This document shows, piece after piece, positions 1,019 through 17,149 of a stretch of 21,301 nucleotides of DNA. Made by a program: the position numbers and the translations under genes. Every line of letters begins with the position of its first letter. The first letter of the stretch is position 1. A model generated the notes under the pieces. The model saw nothing but the letters and a program-made list of their open reading frames with translations. It was not told where the DNA came from and searched no databases. Source of the stretch: a virus. The stretch covers positions 1 to 21,301 of IMG/VR virus record IMGVR_UViG_3300006802_000711; one strand, written 5' to 3'.

Positions 1019-3936
1019 TGGCAGCCATCTCTCAAAAAATTACCAATATTATTGGTGGCGTTTCTCAACAACCTGATAGCATTAAGGTTGGCAATCAGTT
1101 GCGGGTCTGTGATAACTACTATCCAGACGTAGCTACTGGTCTGACAAAAAGGCCAGGCCTTAAGGGAGTTAGCAAGCTTGCTAATGCTGTTGCTGATGGC
1201 ACGTGGTTTACGATCTTTAGGGATGATCAAGAGAAGTACATTATTCAATTTAGCAAGGCTGGGGCACTGAAGATTTGGAGCGCCAATAATGGTGTTCAAC
1301 AGACTGTTAATGCTGTAGCGGCTGAAGCCACGGCTTATGCTGTTCATACTAATTCAGCAGATCTCCAGACCCTTCAAATTAATGATTACATCTTTGTTCT
1401 TAATCGTACCAAGACCGTAGCAGCAGGAACAAATGCAAGTGGGACTCAAGTTCCGTATGCGTTTGTCACGATCAATACGGTGGCGTATAGTTCGACCTAC
1501 ACCATCACTCTTGATGCTACATCATTTTCTTATGCTACGCCTACAACCTCCACCACTCAGCTAAACGTAGGGGACATTGTAGGTAACCTTGTCGCTTCCA
1601 TTAATGCTAACCCTAGTTGGATTGCTCAAGGCATTGGCAATACGATTTATGTAAGGCGAACCAACAATGCTGACTTTGCTATTGAAGCCAAGGGCGGTAA
1701 TACCGGCACGGCTATTGATGCGTTTAAAGATTCTGTTATTTCGGTAGCACAGCTTCCGCGTCAATTTGTCAATAACCTCAAGATTAAGGTAGCAGGTTCT
1801 GTTGAATCTGGTGCTGATGATTATTGGGTGATCTTTAAGACCAGTGATAATACGACAACTGGTGCTGGATCTTGGGAGGAAACCATTGCTCCAGGGATTA
1901 TTACTGATTTAAATGAGGAGACAATGCCTCATGTTATTATCAGGGAAGCAAATGGTACTTTTACCTATCGGCAGCTTGATCAAGCATCTGCTGCTGCTAG
2001 TGCTGGTGTAACTTCTGTTACTGGTGTTCCTACGTCAGTTACTATTGCTGGAGCAACAAGTGGCGGTCACGTTGTCGGAGAGCAATTTGAAGTTACTGGT
2101 GGTACTGGTAAGAACCTGAGACTCCGTGTTGATAAGGTTCAAACCAACACAGTAGTAAATAGTTACGCTGCCAACTCCAGTAGCTATGTAAGGCTAGTAA
2201 GAACTTCTTTTGTTGTTAATGCTCAATATTATTGGTACTTAAATGGAGCACAAATTGGCATTACAACTTCTCCATCTTTAGTTGTAGGCAATACCACGTA
2301 TTCCGTCAACGGTGCCTTTCAAAGCATCAGCAATCAATTAAGAGCTGGCATTACTAGTATTCAATCCACTACTGGTGTGATCAGTGCCATCAGCATTCAA
2401 CAGGCTGGACAAGGGTATACTGCCTCCAACCTAGTACAAAATACTGCTGGAGATACCTTCACTGTTGTGTCAGTCAATACTGCGCCACTTGAAGGTGATG
2501 CTAACAGGCTTAACTATTGGAAGTTCCGTGAAGTAGGAGATGCAACAACCAATCCAATGCCTTCCTTTGTAGGCAATGTGATTGATGCTATTGCCTTTTA
2601 CAGGAACAGGATTGTCTTCTCCAGTAGGCAGAACATCGTCTGCTCACAGGCAGGAGATTACTTCAACTTCTTTAATAGCACTGTCATTACAATTGTTGAT
2701 AGTGATCCTATTGATATTAGTGCCAGTAGCCTTAAACCAGTCCAACTGAAACACGCCATCCCAACTTCTCGTGGGTTGCTGTTGTTTGGTGATAATGCTC
2801 AGTATATCCTAGAAACCACAACCGAAGCTTTCTCTCCGAAGACTGCTGAGATTAACCTCCTGTCATCCTTTAGTCAATCTGATACTATTTCTCCTGTTGA
2901 CCTTGGGGCTAGTTATCTCTTCCTTGAGGAAGGGGACAAGGCTTCATCTATCTTTGAGATGGACATCAAGGATAGCCCTGGTGCTAAGTCTGATGCTATT
3001 GAGCTGACGAGAATCATTCCTACCTACATTCCTGCTGCCATCTATGGCATGAAGGCATCTCCTTCTGCGGGAACTGTTGCCCTCCTCAGCAGGCAAGAAC
3101 CTAGCAACATGTACCTTTATCGGTTCTTCCAGAATGGGGACAACAGGATCTCTGGTTGGTTCCGGTGGACACTTCCTGGTACGATTGAGTTTGTTGACTT
3201 TGATCAGGACATTATGTATGTTGTTACCAAGCATGGTAGTAACTACGTTCTCAGTAAGGTGTCCTTGTTGACAGATACTCCTAGCGAGTCGCTTCTCTTT
3301 GAAGGTCAGTACATTGATGTAAGGTTGGATCTCTTTGATTACAACCCTACTTTGACATATGATGCGGTTGCTGATCTTACGCACATCTGCTTTAAGGATG
3401 GGTTTGAAGATATGAATGAGCAACCAGTATTGATCTTCCTGAATCCTGATGTTGCTGGTTACTTTGAAGAGCAGACGATGCAATATGATGCAACTAAGCC
3501 TGTTGGAGAGAAGTATTTCCTAACTGTTGAAGGTGATCAAACATCTTCTAAGTTTGCCATTGGATATAAGTATCAAGCAATGGCTCAACTGCCAGCCTTC
3601 TACTTTGTCAGGGATGAGCAGCGGGGACTTAAGGATACCCTTAATATTCCCAGGGTTCACCGTCTCAAGGTTAATAGTTACAACTCTGGTCCTTATCGAG
3701 CAGTGATTCGGTCTGAGGGAAGGGAAGAGTTTTCTCTTGAACTGCCACAGATCAATGCTGACTATTATCGAGCCAACAATATTCCTATTATCCGTAATGC
3801 CCAAAGTACCATTCCAGTAATGGCAAAGGGTAATCAATTTGAATTTGAATTGATTGCTGATAATCCATTCCCAACAGCCTTTACTTCGATTGATTGGGAA
3901 GGGACATACGATAACAAAGGAATCCAATCACTTTGA
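1018..3936 (+). CDS. gp12: Tail tubular protein B, nozzle (T7 gp12-like)
   Basis: This 972-residue protein follows tail tube A directly. It opens with ITNIIGGVSQQPD, the hallmark start of gp12-type nozzle proteins ('...GGVSQQP...R..GQ...' followed by 'GL.KRPG'). Further typical segments are VIDAIAFYRNRIVFSS and the LLFGDNAQYIL strand near residue 590, then HRLKVNSYNSGPYRAVI close to the C-terminus, which matches the final beta domain of the family. T7 gp12 has 794 residues, so about 180 extra are present. The likely insertion is roughly residues 331-490, rich in Gly, Ser, Thr and Val and containing an AGQGYTASN motif of the kind found in phage appendage proteins. The product forms the distal tail tube to which fibres attach. 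Its start overlaps the gp11 stop by one base. Confidence 0.92.
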   Translation: MAAISQKITNIIGGVSQQPDSIKVGNQLRVCDNYYPDVATGLTKRPGLKGVSKLANAVADGTWFTIFRDDQEKYIIQFSKAGALKIWSANNGVQQTVNAVAAEATAYAVHTNSADLQTLQINDYIFVLNRTKTVAAGTNASGTQVPYAFVTINTVAYSSTYTITLDATSFSYATPTTSTTQLNVGDIVGNLVASINANPSWIAQGIGNTIYVRRTNNADFAIEAKGGNTGTAIDAFKDSVISVAQLPRQFVNNLKIKVAGSVESGADDYWVIFKTSDNTTTGAGSWEETIAPGIITDLNEETMPHVIIREANGTFTYRQLDQASAAASAGVTSVTGVPTSVTIAGATSGGHVVGEQFEVTGGTGKNLRLRVDKVQTNTVVNSYAANSSSYVRLVRTSFVVNAQYYWYLNGAQIGITTSPSLVVGNTTYSVNGAFQSISNQLRAGITSIQSTTGVISAISIQQAGQGYTASNLVQNTAGDTFTVVSVNTAPLEGDANRLNYWKFREVGDATTNPMPSFVGNVIDAIAFYRNRIVFSSRQNIVCSQAGDYFNFFNSTVITIVDSDPIDISASSLKPVQLKHAIPTSRGLLLFGDNAQYILETTTEAFSPKTAEINLLSSFSQSDTISPVDLGASYLFLEEGDKASSIFEMDIKDSPGAKSDAIELTRIIPTYIPAAIYGMKASPSAGTVALLSRQEPSNMYLYRFFQNGDNRISGWFRWTLPGTIEFVDFDQDIMYVVTKHGSNYVLSKVSLLTDTPSESLLFEGQYIDVRLDLFDYNPTLTYDAVADLTHICFKDGFEDMNEQPVLIFLNPDVAGYFEEQTMQYDATKPVGEKYFLTVEGDQTSSKFAIGYKYQAMAQLPAFYFVRDEQRGLKDTLNIPRVHRLKVNSYNSGPYRAVIRSEGREEFSLELPQINADYYRANNIPIIRNAQSTIPVMAKGNQFEFELIADNPFPTAFTSIDWEGTYDNKGIQSL

Positions 3937-3939
3937 TTT

Positions 3940-4410
3940 ATGACTTCGCTTATCCACCCAGCGAGCCGCTCAGACGCAATCTGGGTGGCTCAGCACCTAC
4001 AAGAAGATGATCGAAGGGAACTAGAGGGTCTTGGCCATACCATGATGGAGGCCGCCCTCTGCCTTTCTATGGACCTTTCAGACAACCCTGTGACCTTCAG
4101 GAATCCTCTTGGAGAGATCTGCGGGATAGCGGGGGTATCCAGAACCGATGCCCATTGCGGAGCCATATGGATGCTTACAACGCCATGTGTCCGTCCGTAT
4201 CCCAAACTATTTTTTAAGGAGGCTAAGAAATGGGTCGAACAACAGACCTCCTATGAGATGTTACATAACATTGCTGATCCAAGAAATAGGATGCACATGA
4301 AGTTGCTCCATATGCTTGGATTTAAAAAACTTATGTATGTAACCACTCAAACCAATCTTACTTATGTTGAATTTGCTAAATTACAACCATGTGTTTTCCC
4401 GCCGCCGTAG
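3940..4410 (+). CDS. gp13: gp13-like protein with GNAT-type fold (DUF2833 family)
   Basis: The product has 156 residues. The N-terminus IHPASRSDAIWVAQHLQEDD and a following 'E..GLG' resemble the T7 gp13/DUF2833 group, whose members look like N-acetyltransferases that have lost activity ('RPA...D...IA..M...D..E'). An EICGIAGVSR strand with a WMLTTPCV strand after it fits the GNAT core beta-strands. The end, HMKLLHMLGFKKL, matches the usual 'R.R.L..LGF' C-terminal helix. In T7, gp13 is needed for infectious particles and was once called internal virion protein A, though its exact role is unclear. Here it sits between gp12 and gp14 exactly as in T7. Its last 22 bases overlap the start of the gp14 gene. 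The CoA-binding loop (Q/RxxGxG/A) is not convincing, so enzymatic activity is doubtful. Confidence 0.75.
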   Translation: MTSLIHPASRSDAIWVAQHLQEDDRRELEGLGHTMMEAALCLSMDLSDNPVTFRNPLGEICGIAGVSRTDAHCGAIWMLTTPCVRPYPKLFFKEAKKWVEQQTSYEMLHNIADPRNRMHMKLLHMLGFKKLMYVTTQTNLTYVEFAKLQPCVFPPP

Positions 4411-5003
4411 TAGGTATTGCAACGGGCTTGATGAGCGCCGTTCAATCCATTGCTGGTTATCAAGCTCAAAGCCAAGCCGCTGCTGCTTCTCAACGTGCTT
4501 ATATTGAGCAACGTAATCTCAATCAGGAAGCTGCTAATCGCGCTTACCAACAACAACAACTTAAGATGAAGGGTGAGATGGAGAAAGCATCACAGCAGGC
4601 TGAGCAGGGCCTCGTGAGGCGTCTTCAAACTCAAGGGGCTACTCTTGCTGCCGGACGCACTGGACAGTCCATAGGGGGCCTTCTAGCCGATGCTGAGCGT
4701 GTTGAAGGAAAGGATCTGGGGACACTTGGCATGAACCTTGCCTATGCCCAACAGGATTATTTCTTTGGCATGGAAAGTATTTACAATCAACAGAAGACAG
4801 CTAACGTCTCTGCTGCGTCTCAAAGGATTGCTAAGCCTAGTGGTGCTGGGTTGGCGCTAGGTTTGATTGGTGCTGGACTTAGCGGATACCAAACGTATAC
4901 AGATTTGAAGGCTCCATCAGCCGGAAGCACACCACGTCCTCAACCTATTCCCGGCGCTCAACTTCCAGGTGGTCGGGCTGGAACAGTTGTTAATTGGAGT
5001 TAA
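4389..5003 (+). CDS. gp14: Internal virion protein B (T7 gp14-like)
   Basis: The 204-residue product is close to T7 gp14 in length (196) and shares its opening, MCFPAAVVGIATGLMSAVQS against the T7 start MCWMAA followed by a small-residue hydrophobic helix. A long helical middle rich in Gln and Ala (about residues 30-110) includes LVRRLQTQGATLAAGRTGQS and a QDYFFGMESIY segment, corresponding to the conserved 'R..YQ.I' helix in T7. A second hydrophobic stretch, GAGLALGLIGAGLSG, lies near residue 155, and the tail is Pro/Gly-rich. In T7, gp14 is ejected into the cell and sits in the host outer membrane as part of the DNA translocation channel. The start lies inside the end of gp13. The next gene begins three bases after the stop. 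Confidence 0.87.
   Translation: MCFPAAVVGIATGLMSAVQSIAGYQAQSQAAAASQRAYIEQRNLNQEAANRAYQQQQLKMKGEMEKASQQAEQGLVRRLQTQGATLAAGRTGQSIGGLLADAERVEGKDLGTLGMNLAYAQQDYFFGMESIYNQQKTANVSAASQRIAKPSGAGLALGLIGAGLSGYQTYTDLKAPSAGSTPRPQPIPGAQLPGGRAGTVVNWS
4996..4999 (+). promoter_or_regulatory. Ribosome binding site deciding the GTG start of gp15
   Basis: GGAG at 4996-4999 lies seven bases before GTG at 5007 and overlaps the last codons of gp14. It is one of the few good Shine-Dalgarno sites in the window and supports the GTG start. The arrangement suggests that ribosomes ending gp14 restart on gp15. Confidence 0.6.
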
Positions 5004-5006
5004 TCA

Positions 5007-7697
5007 GTGGCTAGTATTTATGAATCCCCTGGCCAGCAGGTTGCTCTAACTGGATCTCAAACAGGTGTCTCCTTTCAACCCGTTCAAGCATACGATCCAA
5101 CTCGGATGATGCTTCAACAGTCAGAGCAGGACCTTAGAGCATTTGCTAACTTTAGCGAAAGCCTTACTAAGTTCATTACTGACAAAGCAAAGGAAAAGAA
5201 TCAACAAGAAATGAATCTGGGTATCGCTGATATTCTCAATGGAGAATTGACGATGAAGCCAGATCAGATGAATGCTTATCAGCAAAACGTTAAGCTTCTT
5301 GAACAGGCTGCTGACAGTGAGATTGCTGCTTCTAATAAATTAGCAGAAGTAGATCCTGGTGCTGGTGAAACCTATCGCCAACAGAATCGGGCAATCAGTG
5401 GATGGCGGGCATATGGCCAAGCCGTAGGTAAGGCACAGATGGCTGCTAGTCAAGCAGAGAGTATGCTTGAATCGTTTTTGAGGGACAGTAAGGAAGTTCT
5501 TACGATCCGTCAACCTGATGGCAGCATCAAACAGTTTACCGCAGCAGAAGCCGAAAATCAGCCAGAACTGATGGCTGCTTATGGTGTTGGTCTTCAGAAG
5601 TTCATGCAAGCTTCAGGAATCGTTGGATTAAATCCAGCCATTCTTGTTGAGCATCTTACTCCTACCATGCTACGGGTACGGGCTAAGGTGATTGGGGAAC
5701 GGATGAATGAAATTACCCGTGCTCGCCAAGAAGCAGAGCAGGAAGAAATTGACATTAGTATTGGGCAAAATATTGAGGGACTTGGCAATCCAGAGTCTGC
5801 TCAACAAGTTCTAACTACCATATTAAGTGCGGCTAACAAGGCTTTTGGTGGTCGATGGACAATAGCTAATCAATTTGTTAATAAATCTGCTCTCGGTAAA
5901 TTAGAGGCATTAGGTGTTGGTAATCCTGAAAAGGCTTTAGCAATACTTGATTCTTATTCTGGACTTTTGCTGAATCCTCAAAAGCCAGAACTTGGTACGG
6001 TCTACAATCGGTATGCGGAAGAAATCGAAAAGACTCGCGCATCCATTAAGGGGTCTGCTAGGGAATTGGCTTCTGAAGAAGAAGCTGAAATCAAGGATGA
6101 GATTAACTCCATCTACAACACTTGGAGATCTGCTTCTGAGACTGGCAACCTTGCTGAATCACAGCGAGCCTTCGATGCTGCGGAACAAGAACTAAGCAAG
6201 CTGGCTGCTACCTACCCAGAAGCTACGGAAGCCCTCTCTAGGATGCGTCAGGTTGGCCGTAACTTCAATAGTCTTACTGAAGAAAGCGTTACCAAGGCTG
6301 TTGCCGGTGGCTCCATCAAGAGCCGTGCTGAGCTTCAACTGTTGGCTGCTAATGGGTACATCAGTGCTGATACTGCCAATAAGCTAGGAGAACAACTTCC
6401 TGAGGATGATTCTTCGGAGATGGTTAAGACTCTTCGTCCTCGGATGGAGGCATTTGTTCGCAACGAACTGCGTGGCATTTTTAGGTTTAATAATGCTAAC
6501 TTTGATTCATTCAAGGATCAGACCCTGCCTCTTGTTGGGGCACTAACGGATGAGTTGATGGAAGTTGGCCTGTCTAAAATGCTGGAGCTTAAAGCTGCTG
6601 GTAAAACGACAGGTACTGCTCAACTTCAGTCCTTTTTGGAAAAGCAAGCTCTTGATGCTCTTAAGACTGAAAGATTTAAGCCAATTATCCAAAATGGTAA
6701 AGTAACTCTTCCTACTCCTGGTCGTAACCTTCCTAGTGTTGTTCCTTACTCTACCGGCCCCAACGGCAGGGACTATTCCCGGCAGATCATCAACCGTCTT
6801 CCCCCAGTAGTCTCCGCAAAGCGTGATGTTCTTCTTGATGCTGAAAAGGTTCAAGCAAACATTGATGCTCTCAACAATGGTGGACAACCTAGTTCGGATC
6901 TGGTAACAATTGCTAAGGCTTCTGGATTGTCTGTTCAACAGGTTCTTACCCAACAGGCCCAAAAGAACGGCATCACCTACACTCCTAGCTCCTCCGATAA
7001 GGCAGCCAAACAGTTCCAAACTAATTCTAAGCTGGATCCTTCTGCTGCTCAAATCCTTGCTAATCCACGATCAACAGCTTCCCAACGTATCCGTGCTACG
7101 GCTAGGTTGGCTGAAGCAAAACGTAGACAACAACAAACTTCCATGACTACATCAAGTGGGAAAACTTTTGGTGCTGGGGACTACGGCGGTCTGGCAGCTC
7201 TAATTAGCAGTGGCGAGGGTGGGTTTAACTCAGTCAACCGAGGAACCGCTGGAGACTCTCCACAGGGTATGAACCTTACGTCCATGCGTATTGGTGACGT
7301 TCAACAACTTCAACGTCGTTACAATGAAACCAATGGACGTGAAGGCGTATTTGCTGTAGGCTTTGCTCAGTGGGTATCTGATGGTCAGCTGGACATGGCC
7401 GTTAAGGCCGCCGGACTCGGACCTAACGATAAGATGACCCCAGAGAATCAACTGAAGATGTTCTGGGCTTATGTTCTTAATTCTAACAAGCGTCCTGCCC
7501 TGCGGGATTACCTCTTAGGTAAAAACAACGATCTCCTGAAGGCTCACAGAGAGATGGCTCTTGAATGGGCGGCGGTGGCAGGTCCAGAAGGCTATGGTTA
7601 CTATGACAACGATAAGGCGGGCAATCGGGCCAGCCTTGCAGCTAAGCGTGTACAGCAAGCTCTTGTAGCTGCTCGTAAACAAATCAGCGGCACCTAA
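5007..7697 (+). CDS. gp15: Internal virion protein C (T7 gp15-like) with C-terminal murein-hydrolase-like domain
   Basis: The product has 896 residues, starts at GTG, and is about 150 longer than T7 gp15 (747). The body is helical and rich in Gln, Ala and Glu, as expected for the gp15 protein that forms the periplasmic part of the ejection channel. Residues about 720-890 form a separate domain. It has ALISSGEGGFNSVNRGTAGD around Glu737, then a GVFAVGFAQWVSDGQ strand and QLKMFWAYVLNSN. An early Glu in 'SGEGG.N..NRG', followed by a 'GR/FAQW'-like segment, resembles the lysozyme/transglycosylase fold in which Glu is the acid catalyst. In T7 this activity is at the N-terminus of gp16, whose homologue here lacks it. 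The fold call is by motif only. The gene ends 98 bases before gp16. Confidence 0.82.
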   Translation: MASIYESPGQQVALTGSQTGVSFQPVQAYDPTRMMLQQSEQDLRAFANFSESLTKFITDKAKEKNQQEMNLGIADILNGELTMKPDQMNAYQQNVKLLEQAADSEIAASNKLAEVDPGAGETYRQQNRAISGWRAYGQAVGKAQMAASQAESMLESFLRDSKEVLTIRQPDGSIKQFTAAEAENQPELMAAYGVGLQKFMQASGIVGLNPAILVEHLTPTMLRVRAKVIGERMNEITRARQEAEQEEIDISIGQNIEGLGNPESAQQVLTTILSAANKAFGGRWTIANQFVNKSALGKLEALGVGNPEKALAILDSYSGLLLNPQKPELGTVYNRYAEEIEKTRASIKGSARELASEEEAEIKDEINSIYNTWRSASETGNLAESQRAFDAAEQELSKLAATYPEATEALSRMRQVGRNFNSLTEESVTKAVAGGSIKSRAELQLLAANGYISADTANKLGEQLPEDDSSEMVKTLRPRMEAFVRNELRGIFRFNNANFDSFKDQTLPLVGALTDELMEVGLSKMLELKAAGKTTGTAQLQSFLEKQALDALKTERFKPIIQNGKVTLPTPGRNLPSVVPYSTGPNGRDYSRQIINRLPPVVSAKRDVLLDAEKVQANIDALNNGGQPSSDLVTIAKASGLSVQQVLTQQAQKNGITYTPSSSDKAAKQFQTNSKLDPSAAQILANPRSTASQRIRATARLAEAKRRQQQTSMTTSSGKTFGAGDYGGLAALISSGEGGFNSVNRGTAGDSPQGMNLTSMRIGDVQQLQRRYNETNGREGVFAVGFAQWVSDGQLDMAVKAAGLGPNDKMTPENQLKMFWAYVLNSNKRPALRDYLLGKNNDLLKAHREMALEWAAVAGPEGYGYYDNDKAGNRASLAAKRVQQALVAARKQISGT

Positions 7698-7700
7698 ATA

Positions 7701-7743
7701 GATGGAACATAGAAGTCTATTCTGCGGGGTAGACTTCTCCATC
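7701..7743 (+). other. Perfect 9-bp hairpin in the gp15-gp16 gap
   Basis: AGAAGTCTA (7711-7719) pairs perfectly with TAGACTTCT (7730-7738) around a ten-base loop holding GCGGGG. GATGG (7701-7705) can add an outer stem with CCATC (7739-7743) if five bases bulge on the 5' side. There is no T run after it, so it is not a standard terminator. It could be an RNA-processing or stabilising element for the gp16 message, or a site for the phage polymerase. Function is not known from sequence. Confidence 0.6.
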
Positions 7744-7764
7744 ATCCTTACCTTTCAATAACCC

Positions 7765-7778
7765 ACCTCTGCGGAGGT
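7765..7778 (+). promoter_or_regulatory. Small hairpin sequestering a Shine-Dalgarno-like GGAGGT upstream of gp16
   Basis: ACCTC (7765-7769) pairs with GAGGT (7774-7778) around a four-base loop TGCG. The 3' arm contains GGAGGT (7773-7778), a perfect ribosome binding site, but it ends 17 bases before the gp16 ATG at 7796. An in-frame TAA at 7778-7780 rules out any closer upstream start. The sequence TCTGCGG(A)GGT is also a near copy of the loop of the preceding hairpin (7721-7730). It may reduce or time gp16 translation, which is inference. Confidence 0.45.
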
Positions 7779-7795
7779 AATTAACCAACACAAAG

Positions 7796-10700
7796 ATGGC
7801 AGAAATTGTACCTGGACGGTCCACTGGTGGGCCAATTGAAGACTTTACTCAAACTAGAAAACGCGAGGAAGAGGCTGCTCTTCGGAAGAAACAAAAAGAA
7901 GAGGAAGCCAAACGAAAGAAACTTTTGGCTCAACAAAAGGCTGAACAGGAACGTAAGGCCAAGCTTGATGCCAGAACAATTAATCCTGTTGAAGGGTTTC
8001 AAGGTGCCATCCGAGCAGCCACTCAAACTGGTGACATCCCTAAGCCTCTTAAAGGTACGATTCTTGAAGGCCCTGCGGAAGTTTATCAAGAAACCCGTAG
8101 AACCATTCAAAAGGGTATTGCAAGTGTTGCTGAGGGTGTTCTGAATGTAGGCACTCAAGCGGTAATGGATCTCACCGTCAACCGCAACAAGGAAAAGGAT
8201 GAGTATCTCCGTGCTGCTTATGACTTCGGTGTCACCCCTAAAACTCAGGTAGGTCAAGCTGCTTCCAAGATTCTTGGATTCATTATTGGCACCCGTGTTG
8301 CTGGTAAGGCCCTTGGTCCTGTAGGGAAAATTGGTACGGCTCCTGTTCCCACTGGTCTCAAGGGTGGAGCCAAGCTTGCTGCTCAAACCCGTAAGCTTCT
8401 TACCGATGGTTTGATTCCAGGCGCTGTTGCTGACTTTATTCTAACTGACCCCCGAGAGGGTAACCTCAGTAGTTCCATTCGTGATCTTGTCCCCGAACAG
8501 TATCAGGACAACGTAGCCTTTGCCCTTGCGGCGAAGGAGGATGACAACCCTTGGGTTAACCGACTTCGTTCGGTGTTTGAAGGTGGTCCCCTTAATGCTG
8601 CTGGTAATGGCATCACTGCTCTTATCTTTGGTAACAAGGCTGCTAGGGCCGTTAAGGCTGCTGGAGGGTCCGATGACGAGGCGCTAGGCGTTGGCATCAA
8701 GGCTGCTGCGGAGAAGTCCGAAGAGCTTATGCAAGGCGACCTCAAGGCGTCTGAGGCTGAACGGGTACGGTGGACTGATGCTCAGGAACAGGAGATGCTT
8801 AGTCTCCAAAGCCGTGAGCAGAACATCCAAGATCGTCTTGCTGGCTTGGATCCAGAGGATGAAGTATCCATCAAACTTAATGAAGAGCTGGAGCAGGTAC
8901 GTCTTGCTCAGGCTGATCTGGAGAACACCATCTTTGAAGGTGCTGATCCTAATGTTAAGTATGAGTATTGGGAATCACAAGCAGCAATCCGTACTGCTGA
9001 CATCAACGATGTTGTAGCCAAACAGATCGAACTTGAGGGTGGCTATACCCGTCCCCAAAGTGAGACTGGTTTTGTTCCTGGTAAGCAGATCTCTCACGGT
9101 GGCGGCAATAAGGTCTTTACTGATGCTCAGCTTCGCATCATGAATGTGAGTGAGGGGGCAGAGGAAGTCATTAAGAAGTATCAGAAACAGATTGACTTTA
9201 AGCAAATTGCTCGTAAATCTGGCCGCACGGTGGATCAAGTAGTGGCAGATGCAACTCGCATCTACACTGATTTCATGGATTCCCTTCGGACTTACGATGA
9301 TATTGTGTCGGAAGGTGATCTGATCAAGAAACTGTCCGAAGCAGGTGGAACCCTAACGGAACGTAAGGGAACTTTCCCCACGCCGGAGGGCAACATTGCT
9401 GTCAAGGCAATTGCTTCTGATCTTTCTGCTCAAATCTATGACATTGCTTATGGTGCTGAAGAGATTGACTTTGCTCAACTTGGCGGTGCTAATAACTTTG
9501 ATCGCCTCGTGGATCGGTTTACTGGTCTTCTTGAAATTTATAAGGCTGGTGCCCAATACATGGGTGGTGGTCTGAATGTCTTTAAGATCAAGTTGGGTGC
9601 TGATACCCCTGGTGAAGCTGCTGAATCCCTTCGTAACTTTGAAGGGGAAGATTCGCTAACAATCCGTCAAATCCGTAAGTGGGCAAGTGACATCAAGGAA
9701 GCCTTCCGTCGTGGAGATCCTGATGCTCAAGATCAAATGCGAGCACTGACTAGGGCAATGGTTCTTGCGGGAGGCGACCCCTCAAAAACTGTTTCCTTTG
9801 GTCGTACTGCTATTGAGATCTTTGGTAAGACTCAGATGGGTGTGTTTTATAACAGCATCCTATCTGGAACCAAGACCATGATCCGTAACCTCAGTGCTGC
9901 GTATCGCCTTGTCGAAGCACCTACAAGCATTGCTCTTATGGGAATGCGAAAGGGAGATCCTGCCCTTGTAAGGTCTGCTATGGCTGGGTTCCATGCCATT
10001 ACTACTTCCACACAGGAAGCCCTTACAGTGGCAGCTAGGACGTGGAAGACAGGTATTCCCCAAACGTGGACTCCAAAGATGGTTGTTGAGCAAGCCGAAA
10101 TGGCTGCCATGATCGAGTCCATGGAAAAGATGGCCAAGAATCCGCGAGAGGAAATGGCTGTTGGATTTCTCAAGGGACACATGCGTGTTGCCCAGTGGTT
10201 TGACTTTCCAAGTAAGATTCTGATGAGCACTGATGATGCTCTGAAGACCATTCTTGTACGTCAACGGATTGCTGAGCAGTCCATGTATAAAGCAATGACT
10301 GAAAGCAAAGATCCTACGGATGTTGCTGGTAAGGTCAAAGTTTACATGGATGAATACGCTAAATTTATTGATCCACAGACTGGTCGTGTTAAGGATGCTG
10401 GTCTCCAGAAGTATGCGGAGATTGGTACATTTCAAGAGGATCCAGGTGTTGGTATCAATAGCCTGAGCATGGCTCTTGAAAAGCTTCCATATCTTGGTCC
10501 TGTTGGAAAAATTGTTGTTCCATTTCTGAGGACTCCTGCTAATATCCTTAGGTATCAAGTTCAACACACTCCTCTTGTTGGCAAATACGCTGGTGAATAC
10601 CTAGCTGTTAAACAGTCAGGTGACATGCTGCGTGTTGCTGAGTATGAAGGACGTGAGATGATTGGAGCAATTACTTTGGCTGTTGGCGGAAGTCTTGCTG

Positions 10701-11755
10701 CGGCTGAACTGATTACTGGTAATATGCCTGCCAATCCACGTGAACGTGCTCGCTGGCAAACGTTAGGTATTCGTCCTCGTTCTATTAAAATTGGTGATCG
10801 CTGGGTTTCCTACAATACCATTGAGCCTCTCTCTAATATCCTTGCTGCTTCGGCAGACCTCGTGATGTTGGCTAAGAGTGGTCTTAATGAGGATTGGGTG
10901 GAGAATCTTGCCGGTCAACTTGGTCTGTCCATTGCTGCTTCCCTTACGGAGAAGAGTTACTTTGCTGGTCTTGAAGCTCTAGCAACAATTGCTGATCCTA
11001 ATCAGTTAATGAAAGGAGATACAGCTCTTAGGGGATTGCTTCAAACTGGCAATAATATGATTCCTCTTGCTGGTGCTCGCCGTGCCTTTGCTAACTCACT
11101 GGACCCTTACATGAGGGAATACGATAATGAGTTTCAAAAGGCTGCTGCTGCCGCTATTCCTGGATATAGCCTCTTTTTCCCTGAAAAGATCAATGTTCTT
11201 ACGGGTCAACCACTCAAGAGCCCTAATGGTGGCCCCTGGAACGCGCTAGTGCCGTTTGAGACTGGTCCCGATAATAAGGATCCAGTTGCCAAGATGTTGA
11301 TGGAAGCTGAGTTTAACTGGGGCGATACCCTTGAGGTAAGTCCGATGGGTTACCGACTCAGTGGGGAAGAGAAGAGCTACATCCGCACCGAAATGTCCCG
11401 TAATGGTCTCCGTCAACAGCTAGACGAACTCCGTAAGCTTTCTTGGTTCAAACAAGACATGGCTAACTGGAAGGCTCGTAGCATTGGAGACATTGGCACA
11501 GATCGTAATCAATGGCCACGGTTTTATACTGCCATCCAAGAAACTTGGGAAAGCAGCCGGAATCGAGCCTTTGATAAGATGGAAGCCGAAAAGATTGAAA
11601 CTGGTGAAAAGGTCATTAAGCTTCGTAAGGCTCAAACCAACATCAAAGCAGGTCAATATGATCTCAGTAAGCCGATGACTGCTGAGGACTTTAGTTCTGC
11701 GGATGAAGCGGGTGCTACCGAAGTTTATAATCAACTAATTAATTTTGGTAAATAA
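7796..11755 (+). CDS. gp16: Internal virion protein D (T7 gp16-like), lacking the N-terminal transglycosylase domain
   Basis: At 1319 residues this matches T7 gp16 (1318), the large ejected protein that spans the inner membrane and pulls in the first part of the genome. The N-terminus is different: instead of a lytic transglycosylase domain it has a highly charged coiled coil (about residues 18-60, Lys/Glu/Arg/Gln). A segment ADFILTDPREGNLSSSIRDL (near 212) and a KEDDNPWVNRL motif follow, both familiar from large phage ejection proteins. A second coiled coil lies near 310-380. Around residues 960-1060, GREMIGAITLAVGGSLAAAE is a likely membrane-inserting helix, followed by PANPRERARWQTLGIRPRSI and DRWVSYNTIEPLSNIL, which are typical of this family. 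It follows gp15 with a hairpin-rich 98-base leader and precedes the tail fibre by 14 bases. Confidence 0.88.
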   Translation: MAEIVPGRSTGGPIEDFTQTRKREEEAALRKKQKEEEAKRKKLLAQQKAEQERKAKLDARTINPVEGFQGAIRAATQTGDIPKPLKGTILEGPAEVYQETRRTIQKGIASVAEGVLNVGTQAVMDLTVNRNKEKDEYLRAAYDFGVTPKTQVGQAASKILGFIIGTRVAGKALGPVGKIGTAPVPTGLKGGAKLAAQTRKLLTDGLIPGAVADFILTDPREGNLSSSIRDLVPEQYQDNVAFALAAKEDDNPWVNRLRSVFEGGPLNAAGNGITALIFGNKAARAVKAAGGSDDEALGVGIKAAAEKSEELMQGDLKASEAERVRWTDAQEQEMLSLQSREQNIQDRLAGLDPEDEVSIKLNEELEQVRLAQADLENTIFEGADPNVKYEYWESQAAIRTADINDVVAKQIELEGGYTRPQSETGFVPGKQISHGGGNKVFTDAQLRIMNVSEGAEEVIKKYQKQIDFKQIARKSGRTVDQVVADATRIYTDFMDSLRTYDDIVSEGDLIKKLSEAGGTLTERKGTFPTPEGNIAVKAIASDLSAQIYDIAYGAEEIDFAQLGGANNFDRLVDRFTGLLEIYKAGAQYMGGGLNVFKIKLGADTPGEAAESLRNFEGEDSLTIRQIRKWASDIKEAFRRGDPDAQDQMRALTRAMVLAGGDPSKTVSFGRTAIEIFGKTQMGVFYNSILSGTKTMIRNLSAAYRLVEAPTSIALMGMRKGDPALVRSAMAGFHAITTSTQEALTVAARTWKTGIPQTWTPKMVVEQAEMAAMIESMEKMAKNPREEMAVGFLKGHMRVAQWFDFPSKILMSTDDALKTILVRQRIAEQSMYKAMTESKDPTDVAGKVKVYMDEYAKFIDPQTGRVKDAGLQKYAEIGTFQEDPGVGINSLSMALEKLPYLGPVGKIVVPFLRTPANILRYQVQHTPLVGKYAGEYLAVKQSGDMLRVAEYEGREMIGAITLAVGGSLAAAELITGNMPANPRERARWQTLGIRPRSIKIGDRWVSYNTIEPLSNILAASADLVMLAKSGLNEDWVENLAGQLGLSIAASLTEKSYFAGLEALATIADPNQLMKGDTALRGLLQTGNNMIPLAGARRAFANSLDPYMREYDNEFQKAAAAAIPGYSLFFPEKINVLTGQPLKSPNGGPWNALVPFETGPDNKDPVAKMLMEAEFNWGDTLEVSPMGYRLSGEEKSYIRTEMSRNGLRQQLDELRKLSWFKQDMANWKARSIGDIGTDRNQWPRFYTAIQETWESSRNRAFDKMEAEKIETGEKVIKLRKAQTNIKAGQYDLSKPMTAEDFSSADEAGATEVYNQLINFGK

Positions 11756-16392: not shown

Positions 16393-16593
16393 ATGCTTAC
16401 CATTCTTGGTCTTAAAGTTTCCTACGAAACACTTGCTTTTTTTGTTCTGTTTATTGGTTCTGAAGTTCTTGCTTCTAGCAAACTGAAGTCCAATAGCTTT
16501 GTTCAACTGTTTTTGAATGCGGTTGATTCGCTTAAGCCCTTCCGTTGGGAAGACGACAAAATTAAGAACATTAAAGACTCCATCCTCAAGTGA
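16393..16593 (+). CDS. Small membrane protein, holin candidate
   Basis: The 66-residue product has one clear hydrophobic helix at about residues 9-28 (TLAFFVLFIGSEVLA), after a short N-terminus MLTILGLKVSYE. A charged, amphipathic C-terminal half follows (SLKPFRWEDDKIKNIKDSIL). Single-span proteins of this size beside a peptidase in the late region are typical of phage lysis cassettes. In T7 the holin gene 17.5 lies at the equivalent place, after the tail fibre. The holin role is inferred from size, topology and position. A structural membrane protein is the alternative. Its stop is four bases before the GTG proposed for the peptidase gene, so the two are probably cotranslated. Confidence 0.7.
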   Translation: MLTILGLKVSYETLAFFVLFIGSEVLASSKLKSNSFVQLFLNAVDSLKPFRWEDDKIKNIKDSILK

Positions 16594-16597
16594 TCCG

Positions 16598-17149
16598 GTG
16601 ACTATCCTTAGGGTTCCCCAATATTACCCTCAACTGGACTCCGATACGCCACACGGTAGCCGCATGTGCTTTTCCAGTAGCGTTGCTATGGCGGTCAAGT
16701 ACCTGTCTCCAGGGGCCCTTTTAGGGGTGAATGCCGATGATGAGTACCTTAAAAAAGTATTGCGTTATGGAGATACCACCCAATCCACAGCACAGATACG
16801 GGCGGCCTTTGATTATGGTATCAAGGCCACCTTTTTTACCAATGGAACCCGTACCATCCTTGAAAAGGAACTAGAAGCAGGGTATCCTGTGGCTTGTGGC
16901 ATCCTTCATCACGGCCCTGCTTACGCTCCAAGCGGTGGTGGGCACTGGATGCTCGTCATTGGCCTTACGGATACCCATGTGGTGTGTCATGACCCCTATG
17001 GGGAGATGAATAACGCTAATGGTGGGTATCCAAAGCCCGGAAAAGGAGGCAAAGGAGTCACTTATACCTGGAAAAACTGGTCCAAACGGTGGATGGTTGA
17101 GGGGAATGGCTCTGGCTGGTACATGACGTTTCGAAAACTTTCCAAATAA
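16598..17149 (+). CDS. C39-like cysteine peptidase, possible endolysin
   Basis: From the GTG at 16598 the product has 183 residues. The N-terminus VPQYYPQLDSDTPHGSRMCF carries the catalytic Cys (Cys24 in RMCFSSS). His116 lies in GGGHWMLVIGL and Asp132 in CHDPYG. This Cys-His-Asp order and spacing are those of peptidase C39-like proteins of the papain fold. An ATG at 16517 is also in frame, but it would place 27 more residues over the end of the preceding gene and ahead of the usual family start, so GTG is preferred. In cyanophages similar proteins are found near lysis or structural genes. Here the membrane protein just upstream suggests a holin/endolysin pair cutting murein cross-links. A virion processing or entry role is also possible. 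Confidence 0.78.
   Translation: MTILRVPQYYPQLDSDTPHGSRMCFSSSVAMAVKYLSPGALLGVNADDEYLKKVLRYGDTTQSTAQIRAAFDYGIKATFFTNGTRTILEKELEAGYPVACGILHHGPAYAPSGGGHWMLVIGLTDTHVVCHDPYGEMNNANGGYPKPGKGGKGVTYTWKNWSKRWMVEGNGSGWYMTFRKLSK

Follow-up and report, generated by a model that had tools for sequence, protein, structure and literature searches.

A predicted lambda-lysozyme-type domain at the end of the gp15-position ejection protein of a T7-like phage, and its replacement by unrelated, putatively wall-cutting domains in close relatives

In T7, the local cutting of glycan strands that lets the ejection tube and gp16 reach the inner membrane is the job of the N-terminal SLT (transglycosylase) domain of gp16. 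This enzyme forms 'wings' outside the gp15 tunnel, in the periplasm (PMC8954989). The location of a wall-cutting enzyme on gp15 itself is not new, being found in phiKMV gp36, in SP6 and K1-5, and in the OEP of the Pectobacterium phage PhiM1 (PMC5380687, PMC11440229). In the Pseudomonas phage phiKMV, the gene order gp35-gp36-gp37 corresponds to gp14-gp15-gp16, and gp36 (898 aa) carries a C-terminal lysozyme domain (gp36C) whose activity has been demonstrated (PMC5380687). The gp15-position proteins of SP6 (gp36) and K1-5 (gp38) end in a Pfam Phage_lysozyme domain (residues 770-905 in SP6, 6.6e-10), and the octameric OEP of PhiM1 (gp49), also at the gp15 position, has a lysozyme-like domain at residues 718-903, seen by cryo-EM (PMC11440229). 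For the gp37 proteins of phiKMV and SP6, the match to phrog_342 (the gp16 family) begins past the SLT, at profile position 168 or 206; in phiKMV gp37, where the match starts at 168, the N-terminal SLT region is missing, and SP6 gp37 likewise has no SLT.

The DNA analyzed here (the window) is a 21,301-base IMG/VR virus fragment, and it contains a T7-like structural block: a tail tube protein, a nozzle, a small internal virion protein at the gp13 position, gp14, gp15, gp16, fibre-type proteins and a candidate endolysin. The genes that matter for the present comparison are the following.

4389-5003, + strand: gp14-like internal virion protein (Pfam PF24072 T7_gp14, 2e-19)
5007-7697, + strand: gp15-position ejection protein of 896 aa with a GTG start, the open reading frame between gp14 and gp16; residues 1-708 are a tunnel-type body and residues 712-896 a predicted muralytic module
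7796-11755, + strand: gp16-position internal virion protein of 1319 aa (phrog_6651, 2e-141), in which no SLT or lysozyme domain was detected
16517-17149: C39-like endolysin candidate (phrog_10051, 5e-67)

The GTG start of gp15 is supported by the aligned homologue in locus L069, which has ATG at the same codon. The names gp15 and gp16 are based on synteny, on the flanking gp14 and on cyanophage homologues, and not on likeness to T7. The window gp15 shows no sequence homology to T7 gp15 (no phrog_1339 match and no PDB match), and homology was seen only to cyanophage gp15s, its body resembling those of marine T7-like cyanophages (S-TIP28 gp15 residues 1-690, E 2e-8, and more weakly Syn5). An hhalign comparison of the window gp16 with T7 gp16 and with phiKMV gp37 detected no similarity. 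Judging from its relatives, which are Synechococcus phages, the virus is probably a T7-like phage of a cyanobacterial host.

Residues 712-896 of gp15 (7140-7694) form a separate domain of about 170 residues, in which SGEGGFNSVNRG begins at residue 735 and FAQW at residue 786. T7 gp15 has only 747 aa and gave no Pfam match. The preliminary description had pointed to just such an extra domain with Glu737 and a FAQW segment, and this observation is confirmed, coordinates included.

7191-7676, + strand: core of the lambda-lysozyme-type domain (predicted lytic transglycosylase), about residues 729-890, defined with profile A2
7215-7217, + strand: GAG codon of Glu737, the predicted catalytic residue, aligned with Glu19 of lambda lysozyme

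Glu737 and the GFAQW motif are invariant in an alignment of close relatives (22 of 22). The Glu is also kept in 21 of the 22 sequences of a wide alignment, the exception, S-TIP37, being probably misaligned.

As a single sequence, the window domain matches no Pfam lysozyme family and nothing in the PDB search, NCBIfam gave no match, and the link to lambda requires a profile. Profile A2, built from 22 diverse members of the domain, was compared with 177,635 PDB sequences and recovered lambda lysozyme (1am7, 3d3d; E 0.0027), the lysozyme region of the A-1(L) hub (8kea; E 0.013) and also entry 11mn ('66 kDa protein'; E 2e-7). Against lambda R, for which the template was a single sequence, hhalign gave E 2.6e-6 and prob 88.7 over 121 columns at about 25% identity; Glu737 falls on the catalytic Glu19, and the motifs G-x-Y/A-Q, P-x-x-Q and W-A-(S/A) are common to both. 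The AF2 model of the domain is of moderate quality (pLDDT 75.6) and poor at the catalytic loop (28-42). With this model, Foldseek found the A-1(L) hub as the best PDB match, a weak one (8kea; prob 0.90, E 0.037, TM 0.42), and viral lysin-type matches in BFVD down to 3e-10, including the 'bacteriophage lysin domain' of S-CAM7. In the A-1(L) hub, the endoglucanase and peptidase domains are reported to hydrolyse their substrates (PMC10966104), and the 'lysozyme' domain is so named by fold. Ketoacyl synthase matches are due to chance, and the T7 SLT and the C-termini of phiKMV gp36, SP6 gp36, Syn5 gp44 and P-SSP7 gp15 were rejected as relatives of the domain, as hhalign was negative for all of them. 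The lysozyme-like nature proposed for the end of gp15 was thus confirmed at the level of prediction: residues ~712-896 are assigned to the lambda-lysozyme type of the lysozyme superfamily, with Glu737 as the predicted catalytic residue. Because lambda lysozyme is a lytic transglycosylase in which Glu19 is catalytic (PMC6916166), the chemistry of the gp15 domain may equal that of T7 gp16.

The domain also matches phrog_30077 (2e-19) and phrog_37890 (6e-17), both without assigned function. A tblastn search found it in 125 phage records, and found no match to the gp15 body in phage records. Elsewhere, the domain is fused to late-control-D/baseplate-type proteins (in cyanomyoviruses and the Acidovorax phage ACP17) and to a Burkholderia tape measure, and it exists as a stand-alone protein in S-CBS2 and S-CRES3, and in S-N03 and S-B68, where the copies adjoin an endolysin. 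These varied fusions and stand-alone copies indicate a travelling module that is often virion-associated. The domain is itself mosaic-looking when the window is compared with L007, L005 and L006: the middle third (gp15 residues ~742-800) differs, with an indel and IPGNL versus VSDGQL, whereas the last third is near-identical, which suggests recombination inside the domain.

The gp16-position protein, which has a charged helix near its N-terminus (residues 17-59), had been described as lacking the transglycosylase of T7, and our searches agree. The window gp16 gave no Pfam match at E<=0.1, and the other gp16-position proteins scanned (window lineage and marine cyanophages) gave no SLT at E<=0.1, whereas T7 gp16, the positive control, gave SLT (PF01464) at 1.7e-31. 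Residues 1-600 were also negative by hhalign against the T7 SLT, the SLT of L069 and lambda R. The AF2 model of the same residues (pLDDT 45) is too poor for a fold search, so that the absence of an SLT is a statement about sequence; by analogy with the endolysin-like insertion in the TEP hub of PhiM1, the window gp16 could hide a diverged enzyme domain. With a predicted muralytic domain on gp15 and no SLT found at the N-terminus of gp16, the window falls in the group with a C-terminal lysozyme at the gp15 position, and not in the T7 type with a PF01464 SLT on gp16. The preliminary description had presented this arrangement as new, a view that phiKMV gp36, SP6/K1-5 and the PhiM1 OEP contradict.

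A scan for relatives of gp16 yielded 53 loci, and all of the close relatives are metagenomic contigs (IMG/VR). Most of the gp15s at these loci carry the lambda-type domain, but not all. L069 is 78% identical to the window in gp14, 81% in the gp15 body (1-708) and 85% in gp16, but the C-terminal domain of its gp15 is of the SLT type (PF01464, E 2e-4; the 21.2 bits fall slightly short of the 21.3 cutoff) and also matches phrog transglycosylases. The C-terminal domains of the two are unrelated (score 29 vs a shuffle median of 31). By blastn, DNA identity extends over window positions 2308-7130 and 7689-8809, with none between; a perfect run of 39 bases ends at 7130, and identity returns just before the stop codon of gp15. 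The stretch between is listed below, and the exchange of window type for SLT type is represented among close relatives by L069 only, a single metagenomic contig.

7131-7688, + strand: exchangeable muralytic cassette (predicted, lambda-lysozyme type), over which DNA identity to L069 is lost

A second pair, L009 (lambda type) and L078 (another lysozyme/SLT-like domain, with many relatives in other phages in the scan), shows the same borders. Here the gp15 bodies are 83% and the gp16s 85% identical, the C-terminal domains are unrelated, and identity breaks after AKQQQ and resumes at the stop codon. This second swap is carried by five separate, mutually divergent contigs (L078/L080/L085 and L009/L013). 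The reverse combination was also found, with similar modules on different bodies. L111 and L115 have the SLT module of L069 on other gp15 bodies: between L069 and L111, the module is 86% identical, the gp15 body 37% and gp16 39%. Likewise, the lambda module of the window is 74% identical to that of L009, at 37% for the gp15 body and 48% for gp16. The muralytic modules appear to move horizontally between gp15 bodies. In addition, the window and L111 share 83% identity in gp14 but only 34% in the gp15 body and 39% in gp16, which implies that mosaic exchange reaches gp14 too.

On a gp16 tree of 31 loci (made by a quick method; 23 of the 28 inner branches are starred), the minimum is four switches between enzyme families and four gains or losses of an M23 peptidase. 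In L070, L083, L076, L087, L101 and L103, M23 comes after the first module; the M23 label of L079, L086 and L105 was given from length and kinship alone, and the M23 count is less firm for that reason, L105 having no M23 match. In the marine cyanophages, the end of gp15 carries PF18013 in S-CBP2 (1.8e-9, above the cutoff) and, below the cutoff, in P60 (4e-5) and Syn5 (0.013), while that of S-TIP37 is of the lambda type (E 7e-12 against a profile not containing S-TIP37); P-SSP7 gp15 showed none of these muralytic domains by the same tests. P60 gp33 (L062 637-3639), a gp15-position protein of 1000 aa with its PF18013-type domain at 712-837, continues for about 160 residues past this domain, and these look M23-like by eye.

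The clean swaps, the four family changes on the gp16 tree and the PF18013-type domains of marine cyanophages suggest that muralytic modules are interchangeable at the gp15 C-terminus, which would act as their socket. We think it likely that in this lineage it is a dedicated exchange socket, into which unrelated muralytic families are swapped in frame, with fixed borders and among close relatives, presumably matching the peptidoglycan of the host, with the remainder of the ejection machine left as it is. The socket would extend from the end of a basic stretch (EAKRRQ) to the stop codon, and relatives would fill it by in-frame replacement with an SLT type, another SLT/baseplate-hub-lysozyme-like type or a PF18013 type, in some cases with an M23 peptidase added. 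Shuffling of protein modules in phages is known generally (PMC10684548), from a text in which 'ejection' and 'internal virion' do not occur. The predicted enzyme at the end of gp15 is here of the lambda type, and the novel part is its clean replacement by unrelated putative wall-cutting enzymes in close relatives.

The spacer between gp15 and gp16 contains a conserved RNA hairpin directly 3' of the gp15 stop codon and of the cassette.

7701-7743, + strand: RNA hairpin with a UGCG loop (inner stem 7712-7737; fold z -4.1)

It consists of an outer stem, an A-rich bulge of 5-6 nt, an inner stem and a UGCG loop that is invariant in 19 of 19 loci. All 11 pairs of the inner stem covary in the 19 loci (covariation 0.703 vs 0.288 in shuffled alignments, sd 0.033), and the hairpin lies at the same place in L069, L083, L009, L078, L080, L011, L014, L040, L105 and others; it has no match in Rfam. 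This hairpin may be an element of mRNA processing or stability, and it may also provide a 3' homology block for cassette exchange. A second, small hairpin at 7765-7779 (ACCTC-UGCG-GAGGU), whose stem changes across relatives, pairs the Shine-Dalgarno-like GGAGG upstream of gp16, and control of gp16 translation by it is possible.

From the domain family, the conservation of the Glu, the position, the lack of a detectable enzyme in gp16 and the clean swaps, we infer catalysis, transglycosylase chemistry, location in the virion and timing as follows. We consider it very probable that gp15 residues ~712-896 are a muralytic module of the lambda-lysozyme type, most likely a lytic transglycosylase with Glu737 as its single catalytic acid, which is carried by the periplasmic-tunnel subunit of a T7-like ejection machine in a socket that unrelated modules fill in relatives. 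During infection, the pore in the outer membrane would be made by gp14 and the tube across the periplasm by gp15; the module would be ejected along with gp15 and so be placed on this tube, where the C-terminal modules would cut glycan strands locally, probably by transglycosylation, allowing the tube and gp16 to reach the inner membrane. The best indirect evidence for a function in entry is the replacement of the module, in close relatives, by an SLT-type domain, that is, by the family used in T7 gp16.

It is somewhat doubtful, but worth weighing, that the domain is a true hydrolase (muramidase) or another glycan-cutting enzyme of the lysozyme superfamily, which would leave its role in DNA entry unchanged. 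Many lysozyme-fold enzymes hydrolyse, and the transglycosylase chemistry is deduced only from the distant relationship to lambda (~25% identity); however, lambda lysozyme, the closest characterized relative, is a lytic transglycosylase (PMC6916166), and L069 has an SLT-type domain in the same place. A role in lysis at the end of infection, like that of an endolysin, seems improbable. It was proposed for ORF45 of S-SRP02, which has the same domain (50% identity) in a phage where no other lysozyme was found (PMC8790148), and it would fit the stand-alone copies noted above, but in the window the domain is fused to a gp15-position internal virion protein and a separate endolysin candidate exists, and relatives of the domain, like entry enzymes, occur in fusions with late-control-D/baseplate-type proteins and tape measures. 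Slightly less credible is a catalytically dead domain for peptidoglycan binding or core assembly: the low confidence of the AF2 model at the catalytic loop would allow it, but the Glu is almost universally kept, and the SLT-type modules substituted in close relatives have an ESGG Glu of their own. That the window/L069 and L009/L078 differences are chimeras of metagenome assembly is the least probable reading. All of these sequences are IMG/VR contigs, and among the close relatives of the window L069 alone has the SLT variant; however, both joins preserve the reading frame, the second swap is seen in five divergent contigs, and the SLT module recurs on different gp15 bodies in L111 and L115.

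The interpretation that accompanied the preliminary observation is partly supported. It held that the activity had moved from gp16 to gp15; the T7 SLT and the gp15 domain belong to unrelated families by hhalign, which means replacement or convergence rather than relocation. The suggested shift of the enzyme to another compartment is weakly founded, since in T7 the SLT of gp16 already sits outside the periplasmic gp15 tunnel (PMC8954989), and an enzyme on gp15 need not alter the place of action. Carriage by another subunit would probably change the copy number of the enzyme, provided that the octamer/tetramer stoichiometry seen in PhiM1 applies to the window. Natural close pairs that differ in the gp15 muralytic cassette would permit a direct test of whether wall cutting, besides receptor binding, shapes host range. 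If the end of gp15 is a dedicated exchange socket, the wall-opening step of podovirus entry would be a host-adaptation module, comparable to tail fibres.

A relative with the domain in the same position is ORF45 of the freshwater Synechococcus podovirus S-SRP02 (MW822601.1; L039 6613-9519), which agrees with the window in the position at the end of gp15 and in the domain family, and differs in its N-terminal body, not recognisably similar by blastp. It is annotated as an N-acetylmuramoyl-L-alanine amidase and assigned to lysis (PMC8790148); it looks like a gp15-position ejection protein with a lambda-type domain, so this annotation is not supported and an apparent entry protein takes the place of an amidase lysis gene. 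In the S-SRP02-like loci L039, L034 and L035, an extra protein of 1000-1500 aa ('chromosome segregation ATPase-like' in S-SRP02) lies between the gp15- and gp16-position genes. The endolysin R of lambda shares the sequence family, the catalytic Glu19 and the GRYQ, QD and WAS motifs with the gp15 domain, but it is a free lysis enzyme and not virion-borne. In PhiM1, the lysozyme-like domain occupies nearly equal residues of the gp15-position protein, seen by cryo-EM there and predicted from sequence here; PhiM1 also has an endolysin-like domain inside its gp16-position TEP, and the sequence searches of the window counterpart detected none, though a diverged one may be hidden there. The phiKMV gp36C domain belongs to the baseplate-hub tail-lysozyme family (phrog_13211; prob 0.3 against the window domain by hhalign), and cassette exchange is not reported for phiKMV in the open-access literature consulted. 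SP6 gp36 belongs to the PF00959 family and not to the lambda type. In short, the predicted lambda type of the window is a third kind of enzyme at the tip of gp15, in addition to the tail lysozyme of phiKMV and the PF00959 enzyme of SP6.
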